Assembly (NCBI GenBank): GCA_030429705.1
Contig: JAUIES010000001.1
Location: 744,001 to 808,000 of the forward strand
DNA length: 64,000 nucleotides
Reading direction: 5' to 3'
Origin: Phycisphaerae bacterium
Lineage (GTDB): Bacteria > Planctomycetota > Phycisphaerae > Phycisphaerales > UBA1924
In this document: positions 4,870 to 35,402 of the stretch, piece by piece
Layout: each line of letters begins with the position of its first letter
How positions within the stretch are numbered: position 1 is the stretch's first letter
Notes under the pieces: generated by a model
Told to the model about the DNA's origin: nothing
Databases searched by the model: none
The model's input: only the letters and a program-made list of their open reading frames with translations
Made by a program: the position numbers and the translations under genes

Positions 4870-7764
4870 TTACTTCTTCTTTTTGCCTGTTCCGTTCTTC
4901 AGTGCTGCCTGGGCTGCTGCAAGCCTGGCGATCGGCACGCGAAACGGCGAACAGCTGACATAATCGAGCCCGATGCGGTGACAGAAATCGACAGACTGTG
5001 GGTCGCCGCCGTGCTCGCCGCAGATACCGACTTTCAACTTCTCGTTGCCAGCGCGGCCACGCGTGAGTCCCATCTCGACCAACTGCCCCACGCCTTCCTG
5101 ATCGAGCGTCTGGAATGGATCCGACGGCAGAATCTCACGCGAGATATATTCAGGCAGGAATGTGTTTGCGTCGTCGCGCGAATACCCATAGGTCAACTGC
5201 GTCAAGTCGTTGGTGCCGAAACTGAAGAAGTCGGCAGACCCGGCGATATCCTGAGCGGTCAGGGCTGCACGCGGAATCTCGATCATCGTGCCAATCTTGA
5301 TATCGAGGCGACCGGAATACTCCATATCCGCCTTGGTGACCTTGATGACACGCTCGGCTTCTGCACGCAAAATATCGAGTTCTTTCCGGGTGCCGATAAG
5401 CGGCACCATGATCTCTGGCAACACCTTGATTTTGCGCGCCTGACAGTCGATGGTCGCTTCGACAATCGCCCGCACCTGCATCCGCAATATCTCGGGATAG
5501 GTCACCGACAGACGACACCCACGGTGTCCGAGCATCGGGTTGAGTTCGTGCAGCATCGCGACGCGCGACCTCACACGGTCAACCGGAACGCGCATGTGAT
5601 GCGCCAGTTCTTTCTGCGACTGCTCATCATGCGGGACGAACTCGTGCAACGGCGGATCGAGCAGGCGAATAGTGACGGGCTGACCCTTCATCGCTTCGAG
5701 AATGCCGATGAAATCGTCACGCTGGAACGGCAGCAGTTTTTCAAGTGCTGCCTCGCGCCCCTCGACGGTGTCCGCGAGGATCATCTCCCGCATCGACCGG
5801 ATGCGTTCGCCTTCGAAGAACATGTGTTCGGTTCGGCACAGCCCGATGCCTTCAGCACCGAACCCACGAGCGCGGGCTGCGTCGTGTGGCGTATCGGCAT
5901 TGGTCCGCACGCCGAGCACGCGGAACTTGTCCGCCCAGCGCATGATCTTGGCAAAGTCACCGGAGAGTTCGGGTTCGATCATGGCCATCTCGCCAAGAAT
6001 CACTTCGCCGGTCGTCCCGTCAAGCGAAATCAGGTCTTCGCGCCCGAAGGTGCGTCCATTGACAGAGAAGAACCCGGCATCCGGCGCGATCTCGATCGAT
6101 CCCGCGCCAGCCACGCAACACTTGCCCCATCCGCGTGCAACCACTGCCGCGTGGCTCGTCATGCCACCGGTACTCGTCAAAATGCCGCGAGCTGAGTGCA
6201 TGCCTTCGACATCTTCCGGGCTGGTTTCACGCCTGACCAGGATGACGGCTTCGCCCTTGAGCGCACGCTCGACGGCTTCGTCGGCCGAGAACGCGGGATA
6301 CCCGACAGAAGCGCCAGGTGACGCGGGTAAACCGACAGCCAGAATGTCGGCTTTCTCCTTGAGTTTCGGATCGAAGCTCGGCAATAGCAACTGCACAAGG
6401 TCGGCAGCGGGCACTCGCAGGAGTGCTTCACTCTCCGTAATGCGTCGTTCTTTGACCATATCACATGCGATTTTGACCGCAGCCATACCGGTCCGCTTTC
6501 CGGTGCGCGTCTGCAGCATGAACAACTTGCCGCGTTCAATCGTGAACTCGATGTCCTGCATGTTCAGGTAGTGATCTTCGAGTTTCTTCTTGATGTCGAG
6601 CAACTGCTTGTGGACCTTGGCATTCCAGGCCTTCATCTCGGAGAATGGCCGAGGCGTTCGAATGCCCGCAACAACATCTTCGCCCTGCGCATTGACCAGG
6701 AACTCGCCGTAGAAATCGTTGTCGCCCGTGCTCGGGTTCCGGGTAAATGCGACACCTGTGCCACAATCGTCGCCCATGTTGCCATAGACCATCGTCTGCA
6801 CATTGACTGCCGTTCCGCGCAATCCGGCGATGCCTTCAATACGGCGATAACTCAGTGCCTTGTCGGCGTTCCAACTCTTGAACACCGCTTCGATGGCGAG
6901 TTCGAGTTGCTTGAACGGATTCTGAGGGAACTCATCCCCGACATACGCCCGGTAGACATCCTTATACGCATCGCACAACTCGATGAGCCCTTCAGCGGGA
7001 ACATCGGTATCAAGCGCGGCACCATACTTGGTCTTGATCTTGTCAAACGCTTCTTCAAAGTGCTCGTGATCAACACCCATCACCACATTGGCGAACATGT
7101 TGATCAGTCGGCGATAGGCATCTGCAGCAAATCGCGGATTGCTGGTCGCGACAGACAACCCCTCAACCGAAGCATCGGTCAGCCCCAGATTGAGAATAGT
7201 GTCCATCATGCCAGGCATCGAGACCGCAGCACCCGATCGCACCGAAACAAGCAACGGGTTTTCGTCGTCACCAAATTTCTTACCGGTTTCTTTTTCAAGG
7301 AGCGCCATGTGCTGATGAACTTCGTTCATCAATCCGTGCGGCAACCGCTTGCCGCCGTCGTAGTACTTCGCGCAGGTCTCGGTGTTGATGGTAAACCCAG
7401 GAGGGACAGGCAACCCGATCGAAGTCATATCCGCGAGGTTGGCACCCTTGCCACCCAGCGTGTCCTTCATGTCGACAGTGCCTTCGGTGCGAATAGAACC
7501 GAAGTGATACACCATCTTGTCTTCGCGTGGCCGACGCTTGTTGGCAGCCCGAGCCGGTTTCTTCGAGACCTTCCGAGTTGTGCGAGATTTGGCGGCGTGC
7601 TTGGCAGCGGCGGGGCTGGAGCCCGATTTCTTCGCAGCACCTGATGCTGTCTTTGCAGAGACCTTTTTGGTCGTCTTTTTCTTCGATGCCGCCTTGGAAA
7701 CGGTCTTCTTGGTGACCTTTTTGCTCACTTTACGGCTTCCACTATGGGTCGTCTTCTTGGCCAT
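4870..7764 (-). CDS. ppdK: pyruvate, phosphate dikinase with histone H1-like N-terminal tail
   Basis: PPDK interconverts pyruvate, ATP and phosphate with PEP, AMP and pyrophosphate. From about residue 84 (MVYHFG) the protein is a full-length family member: ATP-grasp-like nucleotide domain, swivelling domain with the phospho-histidine motif GGMTSHAAVVARGWGK, and a PEP/pyruvate TIM barrel ending near CGEHGGDP. In front of this lies an 83-residue tail of low complexity, rich in K, R and A (23 Lys, 7 Arg, 15 Ala by my count, no aromatic residues), with repeats such as SKKVTKK and KKTTKKVSAK. The protein ends in GTGKKKK. I start at the ATG at 7764, which has AGGA ten bases upstream; an in-frame TTG lies 8 codons earlier. 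A start at Met84 would give an ordinary PPDK, but the upstream frame is clean coding sequence. Confidence 0.95.
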   Translation of the reverse strand: MAKKTTHSGSRKVSKKVTKKTVSKAASKKKTTKKVSAKTASGAAKKSGSSPAAAKHAAKSRTTRKVSKKPARAANKRRPREDKMVYHFGSIRTEGTVDMKDTLGGKGANLADMTSIGLPVPPGFTINTETCAKYYDGGKRLPHGLMNEVHQHMALLEKETGKKFGDDENPLLVSVRSGAAVSMPGMMDTILNLGLTDASVEGLSVATSNPRFAADAYRRLINMFANVVMGVDHEHFEEAFDKIKTKYGAALDTDVPAEGLIELCDAYKDVYRAYVGDEFPQNPFKQLELAIEAVFKSWNADKALSYRRIEGIAGLRGTAVNVQTMVYGNMGDDCGTGVAFTRNPSTGDNDFYGEFLVNAQGEDVVAGIRTPRPFSEMKAWNAKVHKQLLDIKKKLEDHYLNMQDIEFTIERGKLFMLQTRTGKRTGMAAVKIACDMVKERRITESEALLRVPAADLVQLLLPSFDPKLKEKADILAVGLPASPGASVGYPAFSADEAVERALKGEAVILVRRETSPEDVEGMHSARGILTSTGGMTSHAAVVARGWGKCCVAGAGSIEIAPDAGFFSVNGRTFGREDLISLDGTTGEVILGEMAMIEPELSGDFAKIMRWADKFRVLGVRTNADTPHDAARARGFGAEGIGLCRTEHMFFEGERIRSMREMILADTVEGREAALEKLLPFQRDDFIGILEAMKGQPVTIRLLDPPLHEFVPHDEQSQKELAHHMRVPVDRVRSRVAMLHELNPMLGHRGCRLSVTYPEILRMQVRAIVEATIDCQARKIKVLPEIMVPLIGTRKELDILRAEAERVIKVTKADMEYSGRLDIKIGTMIEIPRAALTAQDIAGSADFFSFGTNDLTQLTYGYSRDDANTFLPEYISREILPSDPFQTLDQEGVGQLVEMGLTRGRAGNEKLKVGICGEHGGDPQSVDFCHRIGLDYVSCSPFRVPIARLAAAQAALKNGTGKKKK

Positions 7765-24883: not shown

Positions 24884-25144
24884 ATCATCGTACAATGGAT
24901 TGCCCGCTGAGGAAATAGCCAAGCGCTCAATTTCGCAAAGAATTTGCACTTGTCATGCCCGATCGAGGGTCCACTCGAACGACGAAGGACACGCGTCAAC
25001 GGCATACCAGACAATTACCCGAACTTTTACCTATCTATCAAACCTCAGGCATCCCGAGAGACCGAAAAAGTATGGTCACCGGGCTCGCTAGAATCATGGG
25101 CGCATTTGCCAGATTCGGACCAAGTCAAGAGAGGTAAGACCCTG
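24884..25144. other. intergenic region before the DUF4011 helicase gene
   Basis: These ~260 bases hold the upstream part of the minus-strand promoter for the dockerin-type gene and the leader of the helicase gene. The helicase frame is open back to a TTG at 24944, but that stretch does not look coding. GAGAGG at 25129-25134 is a Shine-Dalgarno for the GTG at 25145. No RNA gene or repeat was seen. Confidence 0.5.
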
Positions 25145-28100
25145 GTGACTGTCGAGCAATCAACACCCCAATCGCCGTTCACGATCCACGCGGAATATGC
25201 CGACCGGGTGAACTTCGCCATGCAGCAAAATGGCGTGCCTTTGATCGATGCCATCGTCCTCGGAAACCAAACCAAATCACCCATCGAAGATATCGAACTG
25301 CATATTTCACTTGAGAATGGCGATTGCGAAGCGTCAACGCGCCACATTGCACGGGTGGATGCTGGGTCGACGATTCGGATCACACCTGACGATTTTACGC
25401 TGAATGCTGCACGACTTCGGACGCGAACCGAAGCAGAGCGCACTGAACTGGTGGCGATCGCCAATACTGCCGACTTATCGGCGCGGGTTTCGTTCCCGGT
25501 CGATCTGCTCGCGTTCGACCAATGGCCCGGCATCGGACACATGCCTGAACTGACGGCCGCGTTCGTGACCCCGAACCATCCGCATGTCGCTGCCCTGCTT
25601 GCCGGTGCTCGAGCAATACTCTCCATGGCTGGAGAACCCGACGCGCTTGATGGATACCAGTCTGGCAGCCGCACCCGCGTTGCACGCATTGCCCAAGCGT
25701 GCTTTCTCGCAGCCAGAGATCAGGGTATTGGTTACATCGACCCCCCCGCTAGTTTTGAAACAACCGGGCAGCGCGTGCGAATGGTTGATCGCATCGCGCG
25801 TGAGAACTTTGGTACCTGTCTCGATCTGTCGTTGCTTTTGGCGAGTCTGTGGGAGCAATGTGGGATCCACCCTGTGTTGCTGTTCCCAGAAAGCCACGCA
25901 ATGATTGCGTTCTGGGCGCACGACGCGTACCTCGCTGAGGCGGCCATTGACGAACCATCGCGTATCCGAAACTTGATTGAGTTGGGTGAACTCGTTGCAG
26001 TCGAAGCCACACTTTTGACGAAACCTGATGCTTCGTTCGATGATGCCGTTCGTTTGGCGACAGAACGAATGCACGAAGTCGCAGGCGGTTTTTGTGCTGT
26101 TGATATCCAGGCCGGTCGCAAGCGAGGCGTTCGGCCGTTGCCATTGCGCGACGGGTCAATTGCTGAACCAAGCGACAGCACAATATCGATCAATGCACAG
26201 TCGAAACCAAGTGGAACGGACCTTGATCGGCTGACGCTCGCCGAGCGGGCGGAGCAGGTCACGGCCACACAACTGCATGATGAGTCAAACGAACCCGACG
26301 ACCGAATCAAACGGTGGCAGACACGGCTTCTTGATCTTTCACTGCGCAATCGGCTGATCAACTTTCGGGAAACCGGACGCACGCTTCCACTCTGTGTACC
26401 AGAACTTGCTCGTTTTGAAGATGCGCTCGCGCAGGAGAATCGTTTCTCGATTCACAGCCAACCCGCGATCGACGATTCGTTCGCTGCAGAAGAACTTGCA
26501 GCCAACCGCGTGTACACCGCCGTCGCAGAGACTGAAGCACACAAGCGATTACTCACGCTTTATCGAACCGCGAAATCGAGCATCGAAGAAACCGGGGCCA
26601 ATCTCCTGCACCTCTCACTGGGCATGTTGAAGTGGTATGAGACCGGATCAGCCGACCGCCCTCGCACGGCGCCGCTCATCTTGCTTCCACTCCAACTTCA
26701 TCGTTCAGCGACCGGTTCGGGCTATCGATTCAGCCTGTCGTTGAGTGATGAACCGATGAGGCCGAACATCACGCTGCTCGAAAAACTGCAAACAGAATTT
26801 GGCATCGACACAGCCAGACTCGAAGACCTGCCCGAAGATGGAGCGGGCTTGGATGTGCCGCTGATATTGCGGAACTTCCGTTCGGCGATTCGAGATACCA
26901 AGAGATGGGAAGTCATCGAATCTGCACATATCGGCTTGTTCTCATTCAACAAGTTCCTGATGTGGCGTGACCTCCGCGAGAATCTCGATGGACTGAAGCG
27001 CAATCGTCTCGTTCGTCATCTCGTCGAATCACCCGAAATTGCGTTTGATACCGATCCATTTCCTGATGCCGATCAACTTGATGACACTTCGCCGCCCGAT
27101 TCTTTACTGTGTACGCGAGATGCCGATTCATCCCAACTTGCAGCCGTGCGGGCAGCTGCAGATGGCAAGACATTCGTTCTCGAAGGCCCCCCCGGCACAG
27201 GTAAGAGTCAGACCATCGCCAATATCGTGGCCGATTCGCTCGCCCGCGGCAAACGCGTGCTCTTCGTCGCCGAGAAAATGGCAGCGCTGTCTGTCGTTCG
27301 TCGGCGACTTGATCGTGACGGGCTCGGACCGTTCTGCCTCGAGTTGCACTCCGCCAAAGCGCGTAAAAAAGAGGTCCTTGCTCAACTTGATGAGGCGCTC
27401 AGTGTCACGCCCGTGTTCGAACCACTCGAATGGCCCGCGCTGTGCGACAATCTCACACAAACTCGACATCGTCTGAATGCGTATGTTCGCGCGATGCACG
27501 AACCCCGCGCGACCGGCGAATCGCTGTATCAAATGCTGGGCCGATTGAGCACGCTCGGTGATGGACCGACTGTGGCGAATCCGACCCAAGATACTTCATC
27601 AGTTCATGCACAAGAACTCGACGATTGGCGACGCAAAATTGGTGCCTTGATCGATGCCGCCCAGCCGATCGACCCGCCACACGAGCATCCACTTCGTGAG
27701 ATTGGACGGTCCACCTGGGACTTCAGCCTTCCGGCGGAAGCGGAGCGAGCAATCAAAATCGGCCAGACTGCTTGTGAAGAACTCGGTGCAGCTATATGTA
27801 AATTCGTCGGCCTCTTCGATGGCGAACTCGAATCCCACTTGTTGTCTCGATCAGGCGTTGAGTCATTTTCAAGACTTGCCGGGCTGTTACAGGATTCGCC
27901 TGCGCCACCCCGCCGATTGTTTGACGATCCGGTTGCCGGTTCATGGCGAGCACGAGCTCGAGAAGCCTTGCAGATCGCACAACGCTGCGATGCCCAGAAA
28001 GACGCGTTGCAAGCCCGGTATCGAGTTGAATTCCTTGCGATTGAGCCGTTGCCTCATCTTGATGCGTTGCAGCGATCGCGCCAACAGTTTTGGCCTCTGA

Positions 28101-31060
28101 GATCTATCACCGGGTTTCTTGCTCGACGCAAACTTCGCATGTACGCTCGCGCTCAGTTACCCACAACTGAGTCACTCGTGACCGATCTGGAGTTGGTTCG
28201 CTCCATCCGACAAGCGCAGGCTGAATTGAATCAATATCATGATGTGATTGCGACGATTGGAGCAGACTGGGTTTCGAGAGATTGGGACAAAGTCGCGTCC
28301 ATGCTCGACTGGTGTGAAGCGTTTGCAAATGAAGTTGGTTCGCTCGAACGAGATTCTCCTGGCTCGACGCTGTTCACCAATTTATACGACACGGTGTGCT
28401 CCGCACATCTGTCAACCGACATCGGCAAGGCTGCCAAATCGCTGGAGACCTGTTGGGCATCATGGACTGACTCATGGGCACACATTGAAGACTGCCTTTC
28501 GATTGACAGACTTGTCGACGCTCAGACACAACATTGGATCGAGTACACAGCCGACCTCCTCTCTCGGTGGGCCATCAATCTTGGTGAACTGAACAACTGG
28601 TGTGTGTGGCGAGCAAGCCGAGAAGAAGCAGTTCGAGCAGGCTTGACCGATCTTGTCGCAACCTATGAAGACGGCTCAATCGCTCGCGACGACCTTCGCC
28701 CGGTTTTTGAACGCAGTTTTGGGCAGGCCTGGTTCACAACCACCGCCAATCAGACCGAAGAAGTTCGATCATTCAATGCAGAGTCTCACCATCACGCCAT
28801 CGAGCGATTCCGCTCGCTCGACAAGTCGATGCTGCAGATGGCAAGACTGGTGGTCACTTCCAAACTGCATGAGGCAGTCCCCGCAATACCAGAATCTGCA
28901 TCACGGCAATCAGAGGTCGGCATCCTTCGGCGAGAACTCGAAAAGAAACGCCGCCATTTGCCGACGCGTCGACTCATCGAATCGATTCCCAATCTGTTGC
29001 CGCGTTTGAAACCATGCTTTCTGATGAGTCCGCTGTCTGTGGCACAGTTTCTAGATACTGAACTACCCCCCTTCGACCTTGTTATTTTTGACGAGGCTTC
29101 GCAGATCCCTGTGTGGGATGCGATCGGCGCAATCGCTCGCGGCAAAGAGGTCCTCGTTGTCGGCGACTCGAAGCAACTGCCGCCGACGACCTTCTTTAGC
29201 ACAATCGACGATGATGACGAGATCGGTTCAAGTGATGTCTATGTCGAGGATATGGAGTCGATTCTCAAGGAATGCAATGCATCAGGCATACCCGCCATGC
29301 GGCTGCGGTGGCACTACCGAAGCCGACACGAGAGTCTCATCGCATTTTCCAATCACCATTACTATCAGAATGAACTGCACACATTCCCCTCCCCCGCTGA
29401 ACGGTCTGAAGCATTAGGCGTGACCTTTCGGCATATAGCGGAAGGTGTCTATGACCGAGGAGGGTCACGAACAAACACGATCGAAGCAGAGGCAGTGGTC
29501 GATCATGTCGTGGGCCTGTTGCTGGATCCATCGACAACAGATTCGATTGGCGTGGTGACCTTTAGCCAGGCCCAACAGGGGCTCGTCGAAGATTTGTTCG
29601 ACGACCGCAGGCGCCAACAACCCGAGATCGAACGGTTTTTTACTGATGAAACCGAAGAACCCGTTTTCGTGAAAAACCTCGAGAATGTGCAGGGTGATGA
29701 ACGCGACACAATCATCTTCTCGGTTGGGTACGGCCCTGACGCCAACGGCAAGCAGACCATGAACTTTGGACCCCTCAATCAAGAGGGCGGTGAGCGGCGT
29801 TTGAATGTGGCTGTCACCCGGGCTCGCCGACGACTCATGGTGTTTTCATCGATGAAGGCCGATCAGATCGACCTCCGCCGAACGCGGGCAGTCGGCGTTC
29901 GCCACTTCAAGACATTCCTCGACTACGCCGATCGTGGGCCTGAGGCATTGGTAGATGCTGTCGAAGCAGGCACGAAGCGATTTGAAGCCGGGTTTGAGCA
30001 CGCCGTGTGGAGTGCGCTGACTGAGCGGGGATGGACAGTGGACATGCGCGTCGGTTACGCCGGCTATCGCATTGATCTCGCTGTCCGCGACCCGAACAAC
30101 CCCGACCGGTATGTGCTGGGTATTGAGTGCGATGGAGCCGCCTATCACAGTGCCAAGGTTGCGCGCGACCGCGACCGCACACGCCATGCGGTGCTCAAAG
30201 GGCTGGGATGGAGAATCTCGCGTGTTTGGTCGACCCAATGGCACATCAACCGCGACGGGTGCCTTGCGAAACTCATCGCCGATATTGAACTGGCCACACA
30301 AGGCACCATCACCGACGCGCCGTCGGTCAGTCAAGAACCAGTTGCAGAATCGAATCCCCCACCCATCCTGACTGATCCTGTTCATTCATCAGCCGCGCCC
30401 TGCGACCCCACTCATGTCCCGCCACCCCTACCTGGTGTCCCGGCCTCATCGCATATGCATCCGCTCGAACCGTCCGATCACCCGACACACACTGGCGGCC
30501 GTACCGCGTACCGCGTGGCACAACCGACAAGTCGTCGACTCAGCAGCATGGACATCTATGAACAGCGAACGATGCGCCCGGCGACCGAGGCACTAACCGA
30601 GATCGTCTCGGTTGAAGGACCGATCGTCAAGGATCTTGCCCTGCGCCGAATGGCAACCTGGTTTGGGGTCCAACGCCTCACGGGTCGCTATCGGCAACGG
30701 TTCGATGAGATCGAACAGGCGTGGCTGAAATCAGACCAGGGTTCGTTGATCGGCGGCATCTACTGGGGCTCGGACTCTTCGCCCGCGTTCTATCAAAGTG
30801 TCCGCACACCTCACGATGAAGCGAGCCAACGGGATATCGATGAGATCCCGCAACTCGAGATCATCAATGGCGTTGCGTATGTGCTCGAACAACAGTTCGG
30901 CATGCCCCGCGATGAACTCGTTCGCCAAACCGCGTCACTTTTTGGGTTCAGTCGGGTCACGACACGGGTCGGCGAGGCGATCCACGAAGCGATTGATCAA
31001 GCGATCGCGACCGGGCGTGCGGTCGACGCGGGCGACCGGATAACCGTGACGGACCGTTGA
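25145..31060 (+). CDS. DUF4011-helicase-Vsr-like nuclease-DUF3320 protein (Hhe-type defence candidate)
   Basis: This single protein has about 1,971 residues. An N-terminal beta-rich region is followed by a transglutaminase-like stretch near RENFGTCLDLSLLLAS, then DUF4011 at about residues 385-520 (RWQTRLLDLSLRNRLINF). A superfamily 1 helicase core follows: Walker A LEGPPGTGKSQTIANI near 680, Walker B LVIFDEASQIPVWDA near 1310 with GDSKQLPPTTFF, and the distal NVAVTRARRRLMVFSS. A Vsr/endonuclease-like domain at about 1615-1720 contains GYRIDLAV and GIECDGAAYH. A DUF3320 region closes the protein. DUF4011-helicase-Vsr is the architecture reported as the Hhe anti-phage system. I start at GTG 25145 because GAGAGG lies ten bases upstream. 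No methylase or other partner gene is adjacent. Confidence 0.88.
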   Translation: MTVEQSTPQSPFTIHAEYADRVNFAMQQNGVPLIDAIVLGNQTKSPIEDIELHISLENGDCEASTRHIARVDAGSTIRITPDDFTLNAARLRTRTEAERTELVAIANTADLSARVSFPVDLLAFDQWPGIGHMPELTAAFVTPNHPHVAALLAGARAILSMAGEPDALDGYQSGSRTRVARIAQACFLAARDQGIGYIDPPASFETTGQRVRMVDRIARENFGTCLDLSLLLASLWEQCGIHPVLLFPESHAMIAFWAHDAYLAEAAIDEPSRIRNLIELGELVAVEATLLTKPDASFDDAVRLATERMHEVAGGFCAVDIQAGRKRGVRPLPLRDGSIAEPSDSTISINAQSKPSGTDLDRLTLAERAEQVTATQLHDESNEPDDRIKRWQTRLLDLSLRNRLINFRETGRTLPLCVPELARFEDALAQENRFSIHSQPAIDDSFAAEELAANRVYTAVAETEAHKRLLTLYRTAKSSIEETGANLLHLSLGMLKWYETGSADRPRTAPLILLPLQLHRSATGSGYRFSLSLSDEPMRPNITLLEKLQTEFGIDTARLEDLPEDGAGLDVPLILRNFRSAIRDTKRWEVIESAHIGLFSFNKFLMWRDLRENLDGLKRNRLVRHLVESPEIAFDTDPFPDADQLDDTSPPDSLLCTRDADSSQLAAVRAAADGKTFVLEGPPGTGKSQTIANIVADSLARGKRVLFVAEKMAALSVVRRRLDRDGLGPFCLELHSAKARKKEVLAQLDEALSVTPVFEPLEWPALCDNLTQTRHRLNAYVRAMHEPRATGESLYQMLGRLSTLGDGPTVANPTQDTSSVHAQELDDWRRKIGALIDAAQPIDPPHEHPLREIGRSTWDFSLPAEAERAIKIGQTACEELGAAICKFVGLFDGELESHLLSRSGVESFSRLAGLLQDSPAPPRRLFDDPVAGSWRARAREALQIAQRCDAQKDALQARYRVEFLAIEPLPHLDALQRSRQQFWPLRSITGFLARRKLRMYARAQLPTTESLVTDLELVRSIRQAQAELNQYHDVIATIGADWVSRDWDKVASMLDWCEAFANEVGSLERDSPGSTLFTNLYDTVCSAHLSTDIGKAAKSLETCWASWTDSWAHIEDCLSIDRLVDAQTQHWIEYTADLLSRWAINLGELNNWCVWRASREEAVRAGLTDLVATYEDGSIARDDLRPVFERSFGQAWFTTTANQTEEVRSFNAESHHHAIERFRSLDKSMLQMARLVVTSKLHEAVPAIPESASRQSEVGILRRELEKKRRHLPTRRLIESIPNLLPRLKPCFLMSPLSVAQFLDTELPPFDLVIFDEASQIPVWDAIGAIARGKEVLVVGDSKQLPPTTFFSTIDDDDEIGSSDVYVEDMESILKECNASGIPAMRLRWHYRSRHESLIAFSNHHYYQNELHTFPSPAERSEALGVTFRHIAEGVYDRGGSRTNTIEAEAVVDHVVGLLLDPSTTDSIGVVTFSQAQQGLVEDLFDDRRRQQPEIERFFTDETEEPVFVKNLENVQGDERDTIIFSVGYGPDANGKQTMNFGPLNQEGGERRLNVAVTRARRRLMVFSSMKADQIDLRRTRAVGVRHFKTFLDYADRGPEALVDAVEAGTKRFEAGFEHAVWSALTERGWTVDMRVGYAGYRIDLAVRDPNNPDRYVLGIECDGAAYHSAKVARDRDRTRHAVLKGLGWRISRVWSTQWHINRDGCLAKLIADIELATQGTITDAPSVSQEPVAESNPPPILTDPVHSSAAPCDPTHVPPPLPGVPASSHMHPLEPSDHPTHTGGRTAYRVAQPTSRRLSSMDIYEQRTMRPATEALTEIVSVEGPIVKDLALRRMATWFGVQRLTGRYRQRFDEIEQAWLKSDQGSLIGGIYWGSDSSPAFYQSVRTPHDEASQRDIDEIPQLEIINGVAYVLEQQFGMPRDELVRQTASLFGFSRVTTRVGEAIHEAIDQAIATGRAVDAGDRITVTDR

Positions 31061-31136
31061 CCCCCCATTCTGATGGGTTTACAGAATGTGTCAGAATTTG
31101 CAATTGCGGGCGATTGACTTGCCTACACTGCGGGCG

Positions 31137-31220
31137 ATGAATTTTGCTCAGTCCAAAAAATCGATGAAAGCCAAAGACGCAAAGGCGTCCGGGCTGCCGT
31201 CGTGGCTGAGTTCTTGGTGA
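31137..31220 (+). CDS. lysine-rich leader peptide of the lysW operon
   Basis: This 27-codon ORF begins ATG and contains SKKSMKAKDAK, five lysine codons within eleven residues, no arginine codon, and ends SSW before TGA. It is followed by RNA pairings and a terminator in front of lysW, so I read it as an attenuator leader whose translation reports charged tRNA-Lys. A TACACT hexamer at 31124-31129 could be a -10 box, placing the transcript start at or next to the ATG; the -35 is weak. There is no convincing Shine-Dalgarno, so translation might be leaderless. Expression is inferred only from position, codon content and the RNA folding. Confidence 0.6.
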   Translation: MNFAQSKKSMKAKDAKASGLPSWLSSW

Positions 31221-31274
31221 GACCACCTCCCAAAGATCACACAGTTGCAACCAACCCCGGACGCGTGTCCGGGG
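31176..31274 (+). promoter_or_regulatory. candidate lysine attenuator (three competing RNA pairings)
   Basis: Segment 1, GACGC (31176-31180), pairs with the first half of segment 2, GCGTCCGGG (31185-31193). All nine bases of segment 2 pair perfectly with CCCGGACGC (31256-31264). Most of that same segment pairs with GTCCGGGG (31267-31274) to form the terminator. The pairings are mutually exclusive. Segments 1 and 2 lie within and just after the lysine codons of the leader ORF, so a ribosome waiting for lysyl-tRNA would favour the antiterminator. Confidence 0.65.
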
Positions 31275-31290
31275 TTTTTCGTTTTGTTCT
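31253..31290 (+). terminator. intrinsic terminator in the lysW leader
   Basis: AACCCCGGAC (31253-31262) pairs with GTCCGGGGTT (31267-31276) around the loop GCGT, a ten-pair stem followed by TTTTTCGTTTTGTTCTT. It lies between the leader ORF and lysW, so by position it must act before the operon. Confidence 0.85.
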
Positions 31291-31325
31291 TACTGCGTAT
31301 TCGATTCACAAACAAGGAGCCTCCA

Positions 31326-31505
31326 ATGTCAATCACGATTGAAGCAAACTGCCCCGAATGCGATGCCCCCGTCCAGCCCGCCCGCCGACCGCTCGCGGGT
31401 GAAATCCTGCGCTGTACCCAATGCAGCGTCGAACTGGAGGTGACCTCGACCGAGCCGTTCAGACTCGAACTCGCGCCCGAGGTCGAAGAGGATTGGGGCG
31501 AGTAA
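31326..31505 (+). CDS. lysW: LysW amino-group carrier protein
   Basis: LysW is a 59-residue zinc-ribbon protein whose C-terminal glutamate carries the substrate through lysine (or ornithine) synthesis as an isopeptide. Zinc ligands Cys9, Cys12, Cys30 and Cys33 are present (CPEC and CTQC), the body is acidic, and the protein ends in the required EDWGE. AAGGAG lies eight bases before the ATG; the frame is open further upstream but overlaps the terminator. It is the first structural gene of the operon and precedes lysX by 34 bases. Confidence 0.95.
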   Translation: MSITIEANCPECDAPVQPARRPLAGEILRCTQCSVELEVTSTEPFRLELAPEVEEDWGE

Positions 31506-31539: not shown

Positions 31540-32409
31540 ATGCAAATCGCCATGCTCCACACGCGCCTGCGGACTGAAGAGCGCTTACTTCTTGATGCAT
31601 TTGAATCGCTCGGCGTCAACGTCAAACTCGTCGACCTGCGCACGGTCGTGTTCGACCCGAGTGACCCCGGCGCGTGGGCAAGAGTTGACCTTGCACTCGA
31701 CCGTTGTGTCAGCCTGACAGCATCCACGACTGCTGTGCAAGTTCTCGAACACTTCGGCGTGCGATGTGTCAACTCGTCGCGCACGATCGAAGTATGCTCA
31801 GATAAACTGTCGACGACCCTGGCACTTGCGCGGGCTCAGTTGCCGATGCCTGCTGTCCGTGTTGCGACAGGTCGTGAAGCCGGACTTGAAGCGATCGAAT
31901 CGATTGGATATCCCGTTGTCCTCAAGCCAACCGTTGGTTCCTGGGGTCGACTGGTCGCTCGTGTGAATGATCGCGATGCTGCAGAAGCCATCCTCGAACA
32001 CCGTGACACACTGGGTTCGGTGCGTCAGAAGATCATCTACGCCCAGGAGCATGTGGACAAGCCCGGCCGTGACTTACGGGTTTTCGTGGTCGGGGGTATC
32101 GCAGTCGCCGCGATCGGACGCCGAAGCGAGCACTGGGTCACCAATACGGCGCGCGGTGCCACGGCAGAATCTGTCGATCTTACCAGTGACCTGCGTGCGT
32201 TATCGCAGCAAGCAGCACAGTCGGTCGGTGCTGATCTGTGCGCGGTTGATCTGCTTGAGTGTCCACGCCGCGGACTCTTGATCAACGAGCTGAATCACTC
32301 GATGGAATTCCGAAACAGCATCGACACCACCGGCATCGATATCCCCAGACTTGTCGCAGAGCATGTCGTCAGCCTTGCAGGTGCGACCCATCAAGGCGTT
32401 TCAGCATGA
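31540..32409 (+). CDS. lysX: LysW-dependent alpha-aminoadipate ligase
   Basis: LysX is an ATP-grasp (RimK-like) enzyme that joins the alpha-amino group of 2-aminoadipate (or glutamate in ArgX enzymes) to the C-terminal Glu of LysW. The 289-residue length is usual. Motifs include CSDKLSTTLALARAQLPMP, the ATP-binding VVLKPTVGSWGRLV, RDLRVFVVGG, HWVTNTARGA and the metal-binding end LLINELNHSMEFRN. Substrate choice between aminoadipate and glutamate cannot be fixed from sequence alone, but the lysine codons of the operon leader favour lysine. Its TGA overlaps the ATG of lysY. Confidence 0.9.
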   Translation: MQIAMLHTRLRTEERLLLDAFESLGVNVKLVDLRTVVFDPSDPGAWARVDLALDRCVSLTASTTAVQVLEHFGVRCVNSSRTIEVCSDKLSTTLALARAQLPMPAVRVATGREAGLEAIESIGYPVVLKPTVGSWGRLVARVNDRDAAEAILEHRDTLGSVRQKIIYAQEHVDKPGRDLRVFVVGGIAVAAIGRRSEHWVTNTARGATAESVDLTSDLRALSQQAAQSVGADLCAVDLLECPRRGLLINELNHSMEFRNSIDTTGIDIPRLVAEHVVSLAGATHQGVSA

Positions 32410-33434
32410 CCCGGCGCGCATCGATCATCGGGGGCAACGGCTACACCGGCGGCGAACTACTTCGCCTGTTACTCAACCATCCAGATATCGAAGTGGGCGA
32501 GGTCACATCGCGTTCGTTGGCCGACCGGCCGATCCATCATGCCCATCCAAACCTCCGCGGATGCCTCAACCAGTCATTCATGTCACCCGATGAGGTGACC
32601 CCGTGCGATGTGCTCTTCCTTTGCATGCCCCACGGCGAGGCAAGCACCACGATCGACCGATGGCAATCCATAGCCCCGCTTGTCGTGGATCTGTCTGCAG
32701 ACTTTCGCCTGCGCTCGGCAGATGACTACCAATCGTGGTATGGCGTCCCCCACCCGTCACCAGATCGCCTCGGGACTGCTGTCTACGGACTTCCTGAAGT
32801 CACGCGCCCTCAACTGGCTCAAGCCAGGTTGATCTCGGGTGTCGGGTGCAACGCAACCGCGATGACACTGGCACTGCTACCACTTGCCCGGGCGGGGCTC
32901 ATCGAACGGGTGATCGCGGATATCAAGGTCGGGTCGTCTGAGGGAGGTGCCGCAGTAAACGCCGGTTCGCACCACCCCGTGCGAAGTCGAGCCGTGCGCA
33001 CCTACAGCCCGTCCGGCCATCGGCACTGCGCCGAGGTTCTCCAATCGTTGGGCGAAATGGACCTCGACTGCACGGTGTCAGCGATTGAAATGGTTCGAGG
33101 TGTGTTGTGCACCGCCCATGTGCAACCCAAAGAACGCGTTGATCACAAAACGCTTTGGCGGCTCTATCGCGAAGCGTACCACAATGAGCCATTTGTACGC
33201 ATCGTCGCCGATCGAGCAGGACCAAATCGCCTTCCAGATCCGCGTGTTGTTGTCGGATCGAACTTTGCCGATGTCGGGTTCACGATCGATGAGCGTTCCG
33301 GACGCATCATCGCGCTGGCTGCGATCGACAACCTGGTCAAGGGTGCAGCCGGAACTGCAATTCAGGCGATGAATATCGCACTCGGACTCGACGAAACCGC
33401 CGGATTGACCAGTCCGGGTTTGCACCCGGCCTGA
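32406..33434 (+). CDS. lysY: [LysW]-aminoadipate 6-phosphate reductase (ArgC family)
   Basis: This NADPH-dependent reductase converts the LysW-bound gamma/delta-acyl phosphate to the semialdehyde. The N-terminal Rossmann motif is IIGGNGYTGGELLRLL, the catalytic cysteine is in SGVGCNATAM (about residue 145), and KVGSSEGGAAVNAGSHHPVRS is a conserved substrate-site region. The ATG at 32406 overlaps the lysX stop codon as ATGA; the longer open frame upstream lies inside lysX. At 342 residues it is full length. Position between lysX and lysZ supports LysY rather than a free-standing ArgC. Confidence 0.92.
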   Translation: MTRRASIIGGNGYTGGELLRLLLNHPDIEVGEVTSRSLADRPIHHAHPNLRGCLNQSFMSPDEVTPCDVLFLCMPHGEASTTIDRWQSIAPLVVDLSADFRLRSADDYQSWYGVPHPSPDRLGTAVYGLPEVTRPQLAQARLISGVGCNATAMTLALLPLARAGLIERVIADIKVGSSEGGAAVNAGSHHPVRSRAVRTYSPSGHRHCAEVLQSLGEMDLDCTVSAIEMVRGVLCTAHVQPKERVDHKTLWRLYREAYHNEPFVRIVADRAGPNRLPDPRVVVGSNFADVGFTIDERSGRIIALAAIDNLVKGAAGTAIQAMNIALGLDETAGLTSPGLHPA

Positions 33435-33453
33435 TTCTCGGAGATTGAACACC

Positions 33454-34278
33454 ATGAGCACAATCGTCATCAAGATCGGAGGCGGCCGAGGCATCGACCC
33501 GTGCGCCAACATGGATGAAGTCGCCGGACTCGTCGAAGACGGCCATCGCGTGATCGTCGTCCATGGCGGGTCACATGAAACCAATGTGCTCGCAGAAGCG
33601 CTTGGGCATCCGCCAAAGACAATCACCAGCGCCAGTGGCCGGCAGTCACGCAGAACCGATCGCCAAACGCTGGAGATATTCACCATGGCATACTGCGGCA
33701 AAGTAAACAAGGCCGTCGTCGAACGCTTGCGCACCGCTGGCGTTGATGCGGTTGGCTTGAGCGGACTGGATGCCGGCATTTGGATCGGTTCGCGCAAGAA
33801 CGCCATCCGAGCCGTTGAAGATGGACGAACCGTTATCATCCGCGACGATCTGTCGGGGCGCGTCGAATCGGTCGATGCAGACTTCCTGAATCTCTTGCTC
33901 GATGCCGGGCGCGTGCCCGTGCTGACCCCCCCAGCCGGTACGCCAGATGGGATTGCGATCAATGTTGATGCCGATCGGGCCGCAGCAGCAACCGCCGCAT
34001 CGATTGGGGCAGATGAACTGCTGCTCCTATCCAATGTTGTGGGAGTGCTGCGCGATACTGAAGACGAAAACTCATGTATCCCGCAGGTCTGCAGCGAATC
34101 ATTTGGTGAAGCCGAACACGCTGCACAAGGTCGCATGAAGAACAAAGTGCAAGCCGCACGCGAAGCGATTGAGCGCGGCGTGTCGAGAGTCGTCATCGGA
34201 TCGGCGCAAGGGCCGAGCGCAATCCAACGCGCTCGAGAAGGAGCGGGCACCGTATTCGCACAGGGAGCCCTCACATGA
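33454..34278 (+). CDS. lysZ: [LysW]-aminoadipate kinase (ArgB family)
   Basis: LysZ is an amino-acid-kinase-fold enzyme that phosphorylates the side-chain carboxylate of LysW-linked aminoadipate. It starts TIVIKIGGGRGIDP, has VIVVHGGSHETN near residue 35 and VPVLTPPAG with NVDADRAAAATAASIGADELLLLSN (nucleotide site, quoted here in parts of one region) around residues 155-195. The 274-residue length fits. GGAG lies upstream of the ATG at 33454; a TTG three codons earlier is a less likely start. Its stop overlaps the start of lysK as ATGA. Confidence 0.92.
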   Translation: MSTIVIKIGGGRGIDPCANMDEVAGLVEDGHRVIVVHGGSHETNVLAEALGHPPKTITSASGRQSRRTDRQTLEIFTMAYCGKVNKAVVERLRTAGVDAVGLSGLDAGIWIGSRKNAIRAVEDGRTVIIRDDLSGRVESVDADFLNLLLDAGRVPVLTPPAGTPDGIAINVDADRAAAATAASIGADELLLLSNVVGVLRDTEDENSCIPQVCSESFGEAEHAAQGRMKNKVQAAREAIERGVSRVVIGSAQGPSAIQRAREGAGTVFAQGALT

Positions 34279-35402
34279 CCAACCGAGCGATTGATCTCGA
34301 AACCGATGTCCGGGTCCTCGTTGATCTCGTTTCCACGCGGAGTGAGTCGGGCAATGAGGCAAAGGCTGCCCATGTTTTCGCGCACCACGCATCACAACTG
34401 GGCTTGCAGACTGAAGTCGATGTGATGAACAATGCGATCGCCCATCGCGGGCCGCCTGCGCACGAGGTTCATACTCACATTTTTTTGCTCGGCCATATCG
34501 ACACGGTGCCGGGAGACATTCCTGTGCGAATCGAAGACGGTATGCTCTTTGGTCGAGGCAGCGTGGATGCCAAAGGCCCTCTCGCCGCGATGCTCATCGC
34601 CGCAAGTCGAGCCGATCTCCCCGAATCAGTTCGTGTGACCGTTGCCGGAGCCGCTGGTGAAGAAACCGCTGGTTCTGCGGGCGCCCGGTTTCTCGCCCAG
34701 CACCATCGGCCGGATGCCTGCATCATCGGCGAGCCAAGTGGTTGGGATGGGGTCACACTCGGGTACAAAGGCCGACTCCTCGTCACAGCGTCTGCCACAC
34801 GCGACCTGTCTCACACCGCCGGACCCGACGACTCTGCAGCCGATATGGTCGCCCAGTGGTGGCGAGCGGTCACCGACGAAGTCGCAGCGAGTAACCAGGA
34901 TCACACGCGTGTCTTTGACGCGCTGCAATCGACCATTCGCCACATGTCGACCGAATCGGACGGACTGACAGAAACAGCGACGATTGAAGTCGGGTTTCGA
35001 CTACCACGCTGGATCTCACCCGATCAGTTGATAGAACAACTCACCGCTCGTACGCCGGTCGGCGTGGCCCTTTCGTTCAATGGCGCAGAAACCGCACACG
35101 CCACAAGCAGGAACGACCCCGTCGTGCGTCACTTGTCAGGAGCGATTCGGGCAGCCGGTGCAACACCGCGACCAAAACTCAAGACCGGCACCGCCGATCT
35201 CAATGTTGTCGCACCAATCTGGCGGTGCCCGATCGCTGCCTATGGCCCTGGTGATTCAGCGCTCGACCACACGCCCAACGAGCATCTCTCGATCGATGAA
35301 TATCGGCACTCCATCAGCGTACTCACCGCCGCGATAGAGTCACTCGCACGCGAACTCGTTGCAAAGTCACCGTGCGCCACAGCCTCAGCCATCGCCATTT
35401 GA
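34275..35402 (+). CDS. lysK: [LysW]-lysine/ornithine hydrolase (M20 family)
   Basis: LysK releases the finished amino acid from LysW. It is an M20 metallopeptidase-like protein: [11 protein letters not shown] (zinc-ligand His and catalytic Asp), [15 protein letters not shown] (bridging Asp), [14 protein letters not shown] (catalytic and zinc Glu residues) and a C-terminal EHLSIDEY containing the final His. It lacks a secretion signal, as expected for a cytosolic enzyme. The operon does not contain the aminotransferase LysJ, which must be elsewhere. The last 18 bases overlap the end of the converging formylglycine-generating enzyme gene. Confidence 0.9.

Follow-up and report, generated by a model that had tools for sequence, protein, structure and literature searches.

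In the 64 kb stretch of planctomycetal DNA analysed here (the window), a lysWXYZK operon is preceded by a short open reading frame (ORF) rich in Lys codons and by RNA segments that can pair in alternative ways, and the question arises whether these elements form a switch that couples transcription of the operon to the supply of lysine. An initial annotation of the locus had read them as an attenuator. From our point of view, the comparative evidence, namely the ORF itself, its Lys codons and the conserved pairings, strongly supports this reading, and it is highly probable that the leader upstream of lysWXYZK attenuates transcription by a ribosome-mediated mechanism in which charged lysyl-tRNA is sensed.

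The lysW operon and its leader

Table 1. Features of the leader and of the lysWXYZK operon, with positions counted from the first nucleotide of the window.
Feature	Position	Strand	Details and basis
Candidate -10 hexamer TACACT	31124-31129	+	7 nt spacing to ATG; read from sequence
Leader ORF, 27 codons	31137-31220	+	MNFAQSKKSMKAKDAKASGLPSWLSSW followed by stop; ATG 31137, TGA 31218-31220, without Shine-Dalgarno
Lys codon array (sensor codons)	31155-31184	+	AAA 31155, AAA 31158, AAA 31167, AAA 31173, AAG 31182
Segment 1, protector hairpin 5' strand	31163-31180	+	core GACGC 31176-31180, interleaved with Lys codons; folding
Segment 2, protector 3' strand and antiterminator 5' strand	31185-31201	+	core GCGTCCGGG 31185-31193
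Segment 3, antiterminator 3' strand and part of terminator 5' arm/loop	31256-31264	+	CCCGGACGC
Intrinsic terminator hairpin (3:4)	31253-31276	+	10 pairs, loop 4, -18.7 kcal/mol
Terminator U-rich tail	31275-31286	+	TTTTTCGTTTTG; read from sequence
Shine-Dalgarno AAGGAG of lysW	31314-31319	+	read from sequence
lysW, 59 aa carrier, EDWGE end	31326-31505	+	TIGR01206, above cut-off
lysX	31540-32409	+	TIGR02144, above cut-off; Asn-Thr in ..WVTNTARG..
lysY/argC-like reductase	32403-33434	+	TIGR01850, above curated cut-off
lysZ, [LysW]-aminoadipate kinase	33445-34278	+	NF010659, above cut-off
lysK, [LysW]-lysine hydrolase	34275-35402	+	NF003367, above cut-off

The Asn-Thr pair present in the window's LysX is the signature of the LysX type (PMC10433800). 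Among the genomes compared, lysA is present in only 4 of the 21 that carry lysW versus 39 of the 60 that do not (p 3e-4). Neither a homocitrate synthase nor LeuA could be recognised in the genome of the window and in several relatives, and a search for ArgJ in the same genomes likewise gave no recognisable candidate, despite the complete lysWXYZK operon. Because homocitrate synthase was not recognised, the assignment of lysine as the product of the operon rests on the NCBIfam calls of LysX, LysZ and LysK, the Asn-Thr signature of LysX, the rarity of lysA and the codons of the leader. Ornithine carbamoyltransferase is present in the genome of the window and in several relatives, and the operon may have a second role in ornithine synthesis. 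The gene directly upstream of the leader (24944-31060, plus strand) encodes a 2038-aa protein that matches the ProA family of anti-phage proteins above cut-off (NF058533, 1999 bits).

The Lys-rich ORF described in the initial annotation is present, with five Lys codons within ten residues and, as claimed, no Arg codon (Table 1). It is the sole short ORF of this kind (at least four Lys in 12 residues) on the plus strand of the 64 kb, and a terminator lies behind it. On the minus strand, a second Lys-rich short ORF (4870-4938, ending ..NGTGKKKK before its stop) is followed by a terminator-like hairpin; it starts with GTG and may be the end of a larger frame. Arg codons were considered as an alternative sensor, since they are common in the leaders of relatives, and were rejected, as they lie inside the GCGTCCGGG helix and are missing from the ORF of the window.

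Three alternative pairings overlap one another downstream of the Lys codons. The GACGC/GCGTC hairpin noted earlier was recovered at 31176-31180/31185-31189, and this core pairing stands; the size given to the hairpin does not, because folding extends the protector to 31163-31201 (-17.3 kcal/mol). It is a composite hairpin in which the Lys-codon array itself forms the 5' strand and the AAA codons sit in interior loops. Segment 2 is complementary to segment 3 as had been proposed, and the nine pairs originally counted hold for the antiterminator, which in relatives is often about 10 bp longer than that. Equally, the ten-pair stem with a U-tract was found where it had been placed, overlapping segment 3 upstream of lysW. 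For the 154-nt leader as a whole, the folding energy is -58.8 kcal/mol, which is 4.7 sd lower than in shuffled sequences.

Conservation of the Lys codons and of the alternative pairings

Among 81 genomes, 21 encode LysW, namely the window's own, 19 of its family and one of another family, and 66 LysX loci were gathered from named records. Removal of duplicates resulted in a non-redundant set of 40 lysW loci, 39 from Phycisphaerales and L075. A leader ORF containing Lys codons lies upstream of lysW in all 39 Phycisphaerales loci, usually with four to six Lys codons; three leaders (L004, L005, L009) have three each, and in L019 they are scattered. A terminator scan of the 40 loci detected a hairpin followed by a U-run in 37 of them, missed a comparable one in L004, the loop of which is longer, and gave no clear hairpin-plus-U-run for L013 and L075. 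In 24 of the 40 loci, the best promoter resembling TTGACn-N16-TAnnnT has its 3' end 7-12 nt upstream of the in-frame ATG, and with such a spacing the transcript would begin on the ATG or no more than a few nucleotides from it. Based on this spacing, the leader transcript is probably leaderless. In the window the -35 element is weak, and an automatic promoter scan chose another site.

Many leader peptides have a core resembling KAAKAKDAxSVRAV in common, while others, such as SKQSKAKSKGPPTR, SLKAKAKGNKPSGDG and ALKKLNGKEKTGF, share just their richness in Lys. Since each leader ORF was picked as the most Lys-rich short ORF of its upstream region, the Lys share of the leaders, 14.2% of residues versus 1.8% in downstream ORFs of the same loci, is somewhat inflated. 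The choice between the two Lys codons differs as well, with 161 AAA versus 10 AAG in the leaders and 115 versus 484 in the downstream ORFs; for both figures the comparison set consists of all plus-strand ORFs of >150 codons and is hence approximate. A locus-wide scan for Lys-rich ORFs combined with a terminator is free of the picking bias; applied to 326 kb of strand from 25 Phycisphaerales loci, it returned 21 combinations, each of them a lysW leader, and none elsewhere. The frame of the peptide tail is altered by a one-base gap behind the Lys run in three loci, among them the window (L003, L032, L024), so that conservation extends there to the Lys codons and the RNA and not to the tail.

The pairing of segments 2 and 3 is better than in dinucleotide shuffles in 30 of 37 loci (p<0.05; because the loci are related, this and the following p-values describe the set and not independent events). 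When each antiterminator strand was combined either with its own terminator or with those of other loci, the mean pairing energy was -25.5 vs -20.9 kcal/mol (sd 0.5, p<5e-5), and the preference for the own terminator also holds among nine divergent loci without the common core. In an alignment of 28 sequences, paired positions make up 89.6% of the 2:3 helix, compared with 23-56% for slid versions of it, and double changes occur at five of its nine pairs. The 1:2 helix is 88.7% paired in the 28 sequences versus 18-40% in slid controls; its covariation is weak by itself, with double changes at two pairs and values as high in 75 of 500 shuffles. Folding of the leader region is better than that of shuffled sequences across the 37 loci (Wilcoxon 1.3e-6). 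Segments 1, 2 and 3 have changed jointly in L006 (GACACC / GGTGTC / GACACC), and in L005, L006 and L087 the antiterminator reaches up to about 20 pairs. Comparison with relatives had been suggested as the check on the attenuator reading, and both the Lys codons and the alternative pairings were found to be conserved there, with compensatory changes.

A covariance model of the protector core (R1, built from 24 sequences) returned one strong match in each genome that had any, which was always the lysW leader. Seven further matches (L187-L193) have E <0.01 and lysW directly downstream. Four of these (L187-L190) appear to be the same as, or near-identical to, named training loci, and the other three (L191-L193), which lie outside the training set, combine a Lys-rich leader, a terminator and lysW. 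The model gave no indication of a lysine regulon beyond lysW, as no other strong match turned up among the 81 relatives or among 397 genomes of the class; L134, L194 and L195, which matched weakly, are not leaders. No Lys leader was found upstream of the homocitrate synthase/LeuA-like genes of relatives (L090-L092, L103). Upstream of its LeuA/CimA-like gene, L103 carries a near-leaderless short ORF (MLQANAQIAAILAMTPPR, then stop) and a terminator-like hairpin with a T-run, and it is possible that this leader is a branched-chain attenuator of the same design.

Proposed mechanism and alternative explanations

From these elements we infer translation of the leader, stalling, termination and a response to lysine in the following order. 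The transcript would begin at the ATG or a few bases away from it, and ribosomes would load on the leaderless or near-leaderless 5' end. With lysine in plentiful supply, the ribosome would pass the AAA array and proceed to the stop codon, the protector (1:2) would re-form behind it and leave segment 3 free, and the 3:4 terminator formed by the free segment would halt transcription before lysW. If lysine is short, the ribosome would stall on an AAA codon and cover segment 1, and segment 2 could then capture segment 3 ahead of the synthesis of segment 4, which would allow read-through into lysWXYZK.

Folding with a ribosome placed on the leader, with an assumed footprint that blocks all RNA as far as 12 nt beyond the beginning of each Lys codon, is consistent with this sequence of events in part of the loci. 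On the incomplete transcript, segment 3 is captured with a mean of 0.81 at the best Lys codon versus 0.62 at the stop codon (37 loci, Wilcoxon 1e-8). The initial annotation had cautioned that a ribosome at the stop codon leaves segment 2 uncovered and had supposed that the off state would then rely on the 1:2 hairpin. The caveat is correct and is resolved in the way supposed: the 1:2 pairing is exposed behind a ribosome in that position, and the predicted probability of the terminator exceeds 0.8 in 32 of the 37 loci (equilibrium folding, full terminator). Under the same equilibrium treatment, a stall at Lys lowers this probability to <0.2 in 16 of the 37 loci, to which the window does not belong; its leader retains about 0.93-0.97 with a stall at every Lys codon. 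As the antiterminated and terminated states of the window differ by about 3 kcal/mol (-34.4 vs -37.5 kcal/mol) and equilibrium favours the terminator, the switch would need the 2:3 pairing to form before segment 4 is transcribed, and it is this kinetic route that we infer for the window.

Two other modes of control have to be weighed against ribosome-mediated attenuation. It can be imagined that the RNA works without translation, as a metabolite- or tRNA-binding leader of the riboswitch or T-box type, and that the ORF is incidental. The strong conservation of the core nucleotide sequence (A1 and A2) would fit this idea, as would the T-box-like leader that precedes lysW in L051, a relative outside the order. 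However, no Rfam family matches the leader of the window above chance, and the candidate identity as a riboswitch or T-box was rejected on these grounds; the divergent leaders L015-L021 and L023 have kept the Lys codons and not the RNA sequence; the frame stays open between an ATG close to the predicted 5' end of the transcript and a stop codon that precedes the terminator; and Lys makes up 14% of the residues in frame, with AAA chosen where the genomes prefer AAG. We hence regard control by a non-translated RNA as very unlikely. Marginally less likely still is that the leader is translated and acts on the translation of lysW, by masking of the ribosome site, or via Rho, instead of through intrinsic termination. 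The distance of about 50 nt between the terminator and lysW leaves room for such control, and L013 and L075, as the loci without a clear hairpin and U-run, could be cited in its favour, whereas the strong GC hairpin with its U-run in 37 of 40 loci, the pairing of its 5' arm with segment 2, and the position of the lysW Shine-Dalgarno sequence outside the conserved pairings all argue against it. That a Lys-rich ORF merely happens to lie beside a constitutive terminator of the upstream anti-phage gene, which ends at 31060 on the same strand, is practically negligible as an explanation, given that the leader is conserved in 39 lysW loci, that own pairings are preferred over swapped ones and that no such ORF-terminator pair lies elsewhere in the 326 kb of strand.

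In addition to attenuation at this locus, one could speculate that the lysW-bearing Phycisphaerales as a whole employ an independently evolved class of leaderless lysine attenuators, which would respond specifically to the charging of the tRNA reading AAA, would use the codon array as the 5' strand of the protector and would share their design with other amino-acid operons of the phylum, the candidate before the LeuA/CimA-like gene of L103 being one. We put this broader proposal forward tentatively, as conceivable rather than probable.

Relation to known attenuators and other lysine leaders

A limited full-text search of the literature found no described example of leader-peptide attenuation in Planctomycetota, and the lysW leader provides a case in this phylum that is supported by sequence. 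The element is short, directly testable and not contained in Rfam.

The lysine gene cluster of Thermus thermophilus is reportedly controlled by leader-peptide attenuation. In line with this, Thermus-like genomes (L149-L158) have a leader reading MLARxKKLGRRGVG and a terminator before homocitrate synthase, and the remark in the initial annotation that no described lysine leader-peptide attenuator was known for lysW operons should therefore be withdrawn. Both systems follow the logic of ribosome-mediated attenuation, and in both the LysW-pathway lysine genes are preceded by Lys codons, adjacent ones in Thermus, and by a terminator. They differ in phylum and in the gene that follows, as the Thermus leader lies before hcs whereas that of the Phycisphaerales precedes lysW, and the former carries KK (with RR) whereas the latter has a spaced AAA array. 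Compared by eye, their sequences show no obvious similarity, and the two leaders are probably of independent origin. As judged from sequence, the Phycisphaerales lysW leader is best seen as a new, lineage-specific ribosome-mediated attenuator and not as the first one for lysine.

Like the trp, his, thr and leu attenuators of Proteobacteria, the Phycisphaerales leader combines an intrinsic terminator with an ORF in which codons for the regulated amino acid are frequent and with 1:2, 2:3 and 3:4 pairings that exclude one another. It differs in its predicted response to lysine and in lacking a Shine-Dalgarno sequence. The off state would differ as well, since in the classical systems the ribosome at the stop codon covers segment 2, whereas in Phycisphaerales the protector would re-form. 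A leaderless attenuator has been demonstrated experimentally for trpL of Sinorhizobium meliloti, where the transcript begins with the ATG of the leader ORF (PMC7298713); that system responds to tryptophan, and for the corresponding start in Phycisphaerales the prediction comes from the spacing of the promoter.

Lysine genes are also known to be controlled in cis by RNAs of the L-box (RF00168) and T-box (RF00230) types, the covariance models of which gave no match in the leader of the window. Outside the order, a T-box-like leader precedes lysW in L051 (Ktedonobacterales, 2470-2731; RF00230, 69.8 bits, E 3.7e-15, below the gathering threshold). Short ORFs with Lys codons that are followed by terminator-like hairpins were seen in L049, L056, L047 and L075 as candidate leaders. 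Two of these loci belong to Anaerolineae, where the gene that follows is lysX, and one to a Blastocatellia metagenome-assembled genome, in which, as in L075, it is lysW. The occurrence of Lys-codon leaders in at least two distant phyla, together with a T-box-like leader in a third, suggests that RNA control of the LysW pathway has been invented repeatedly.
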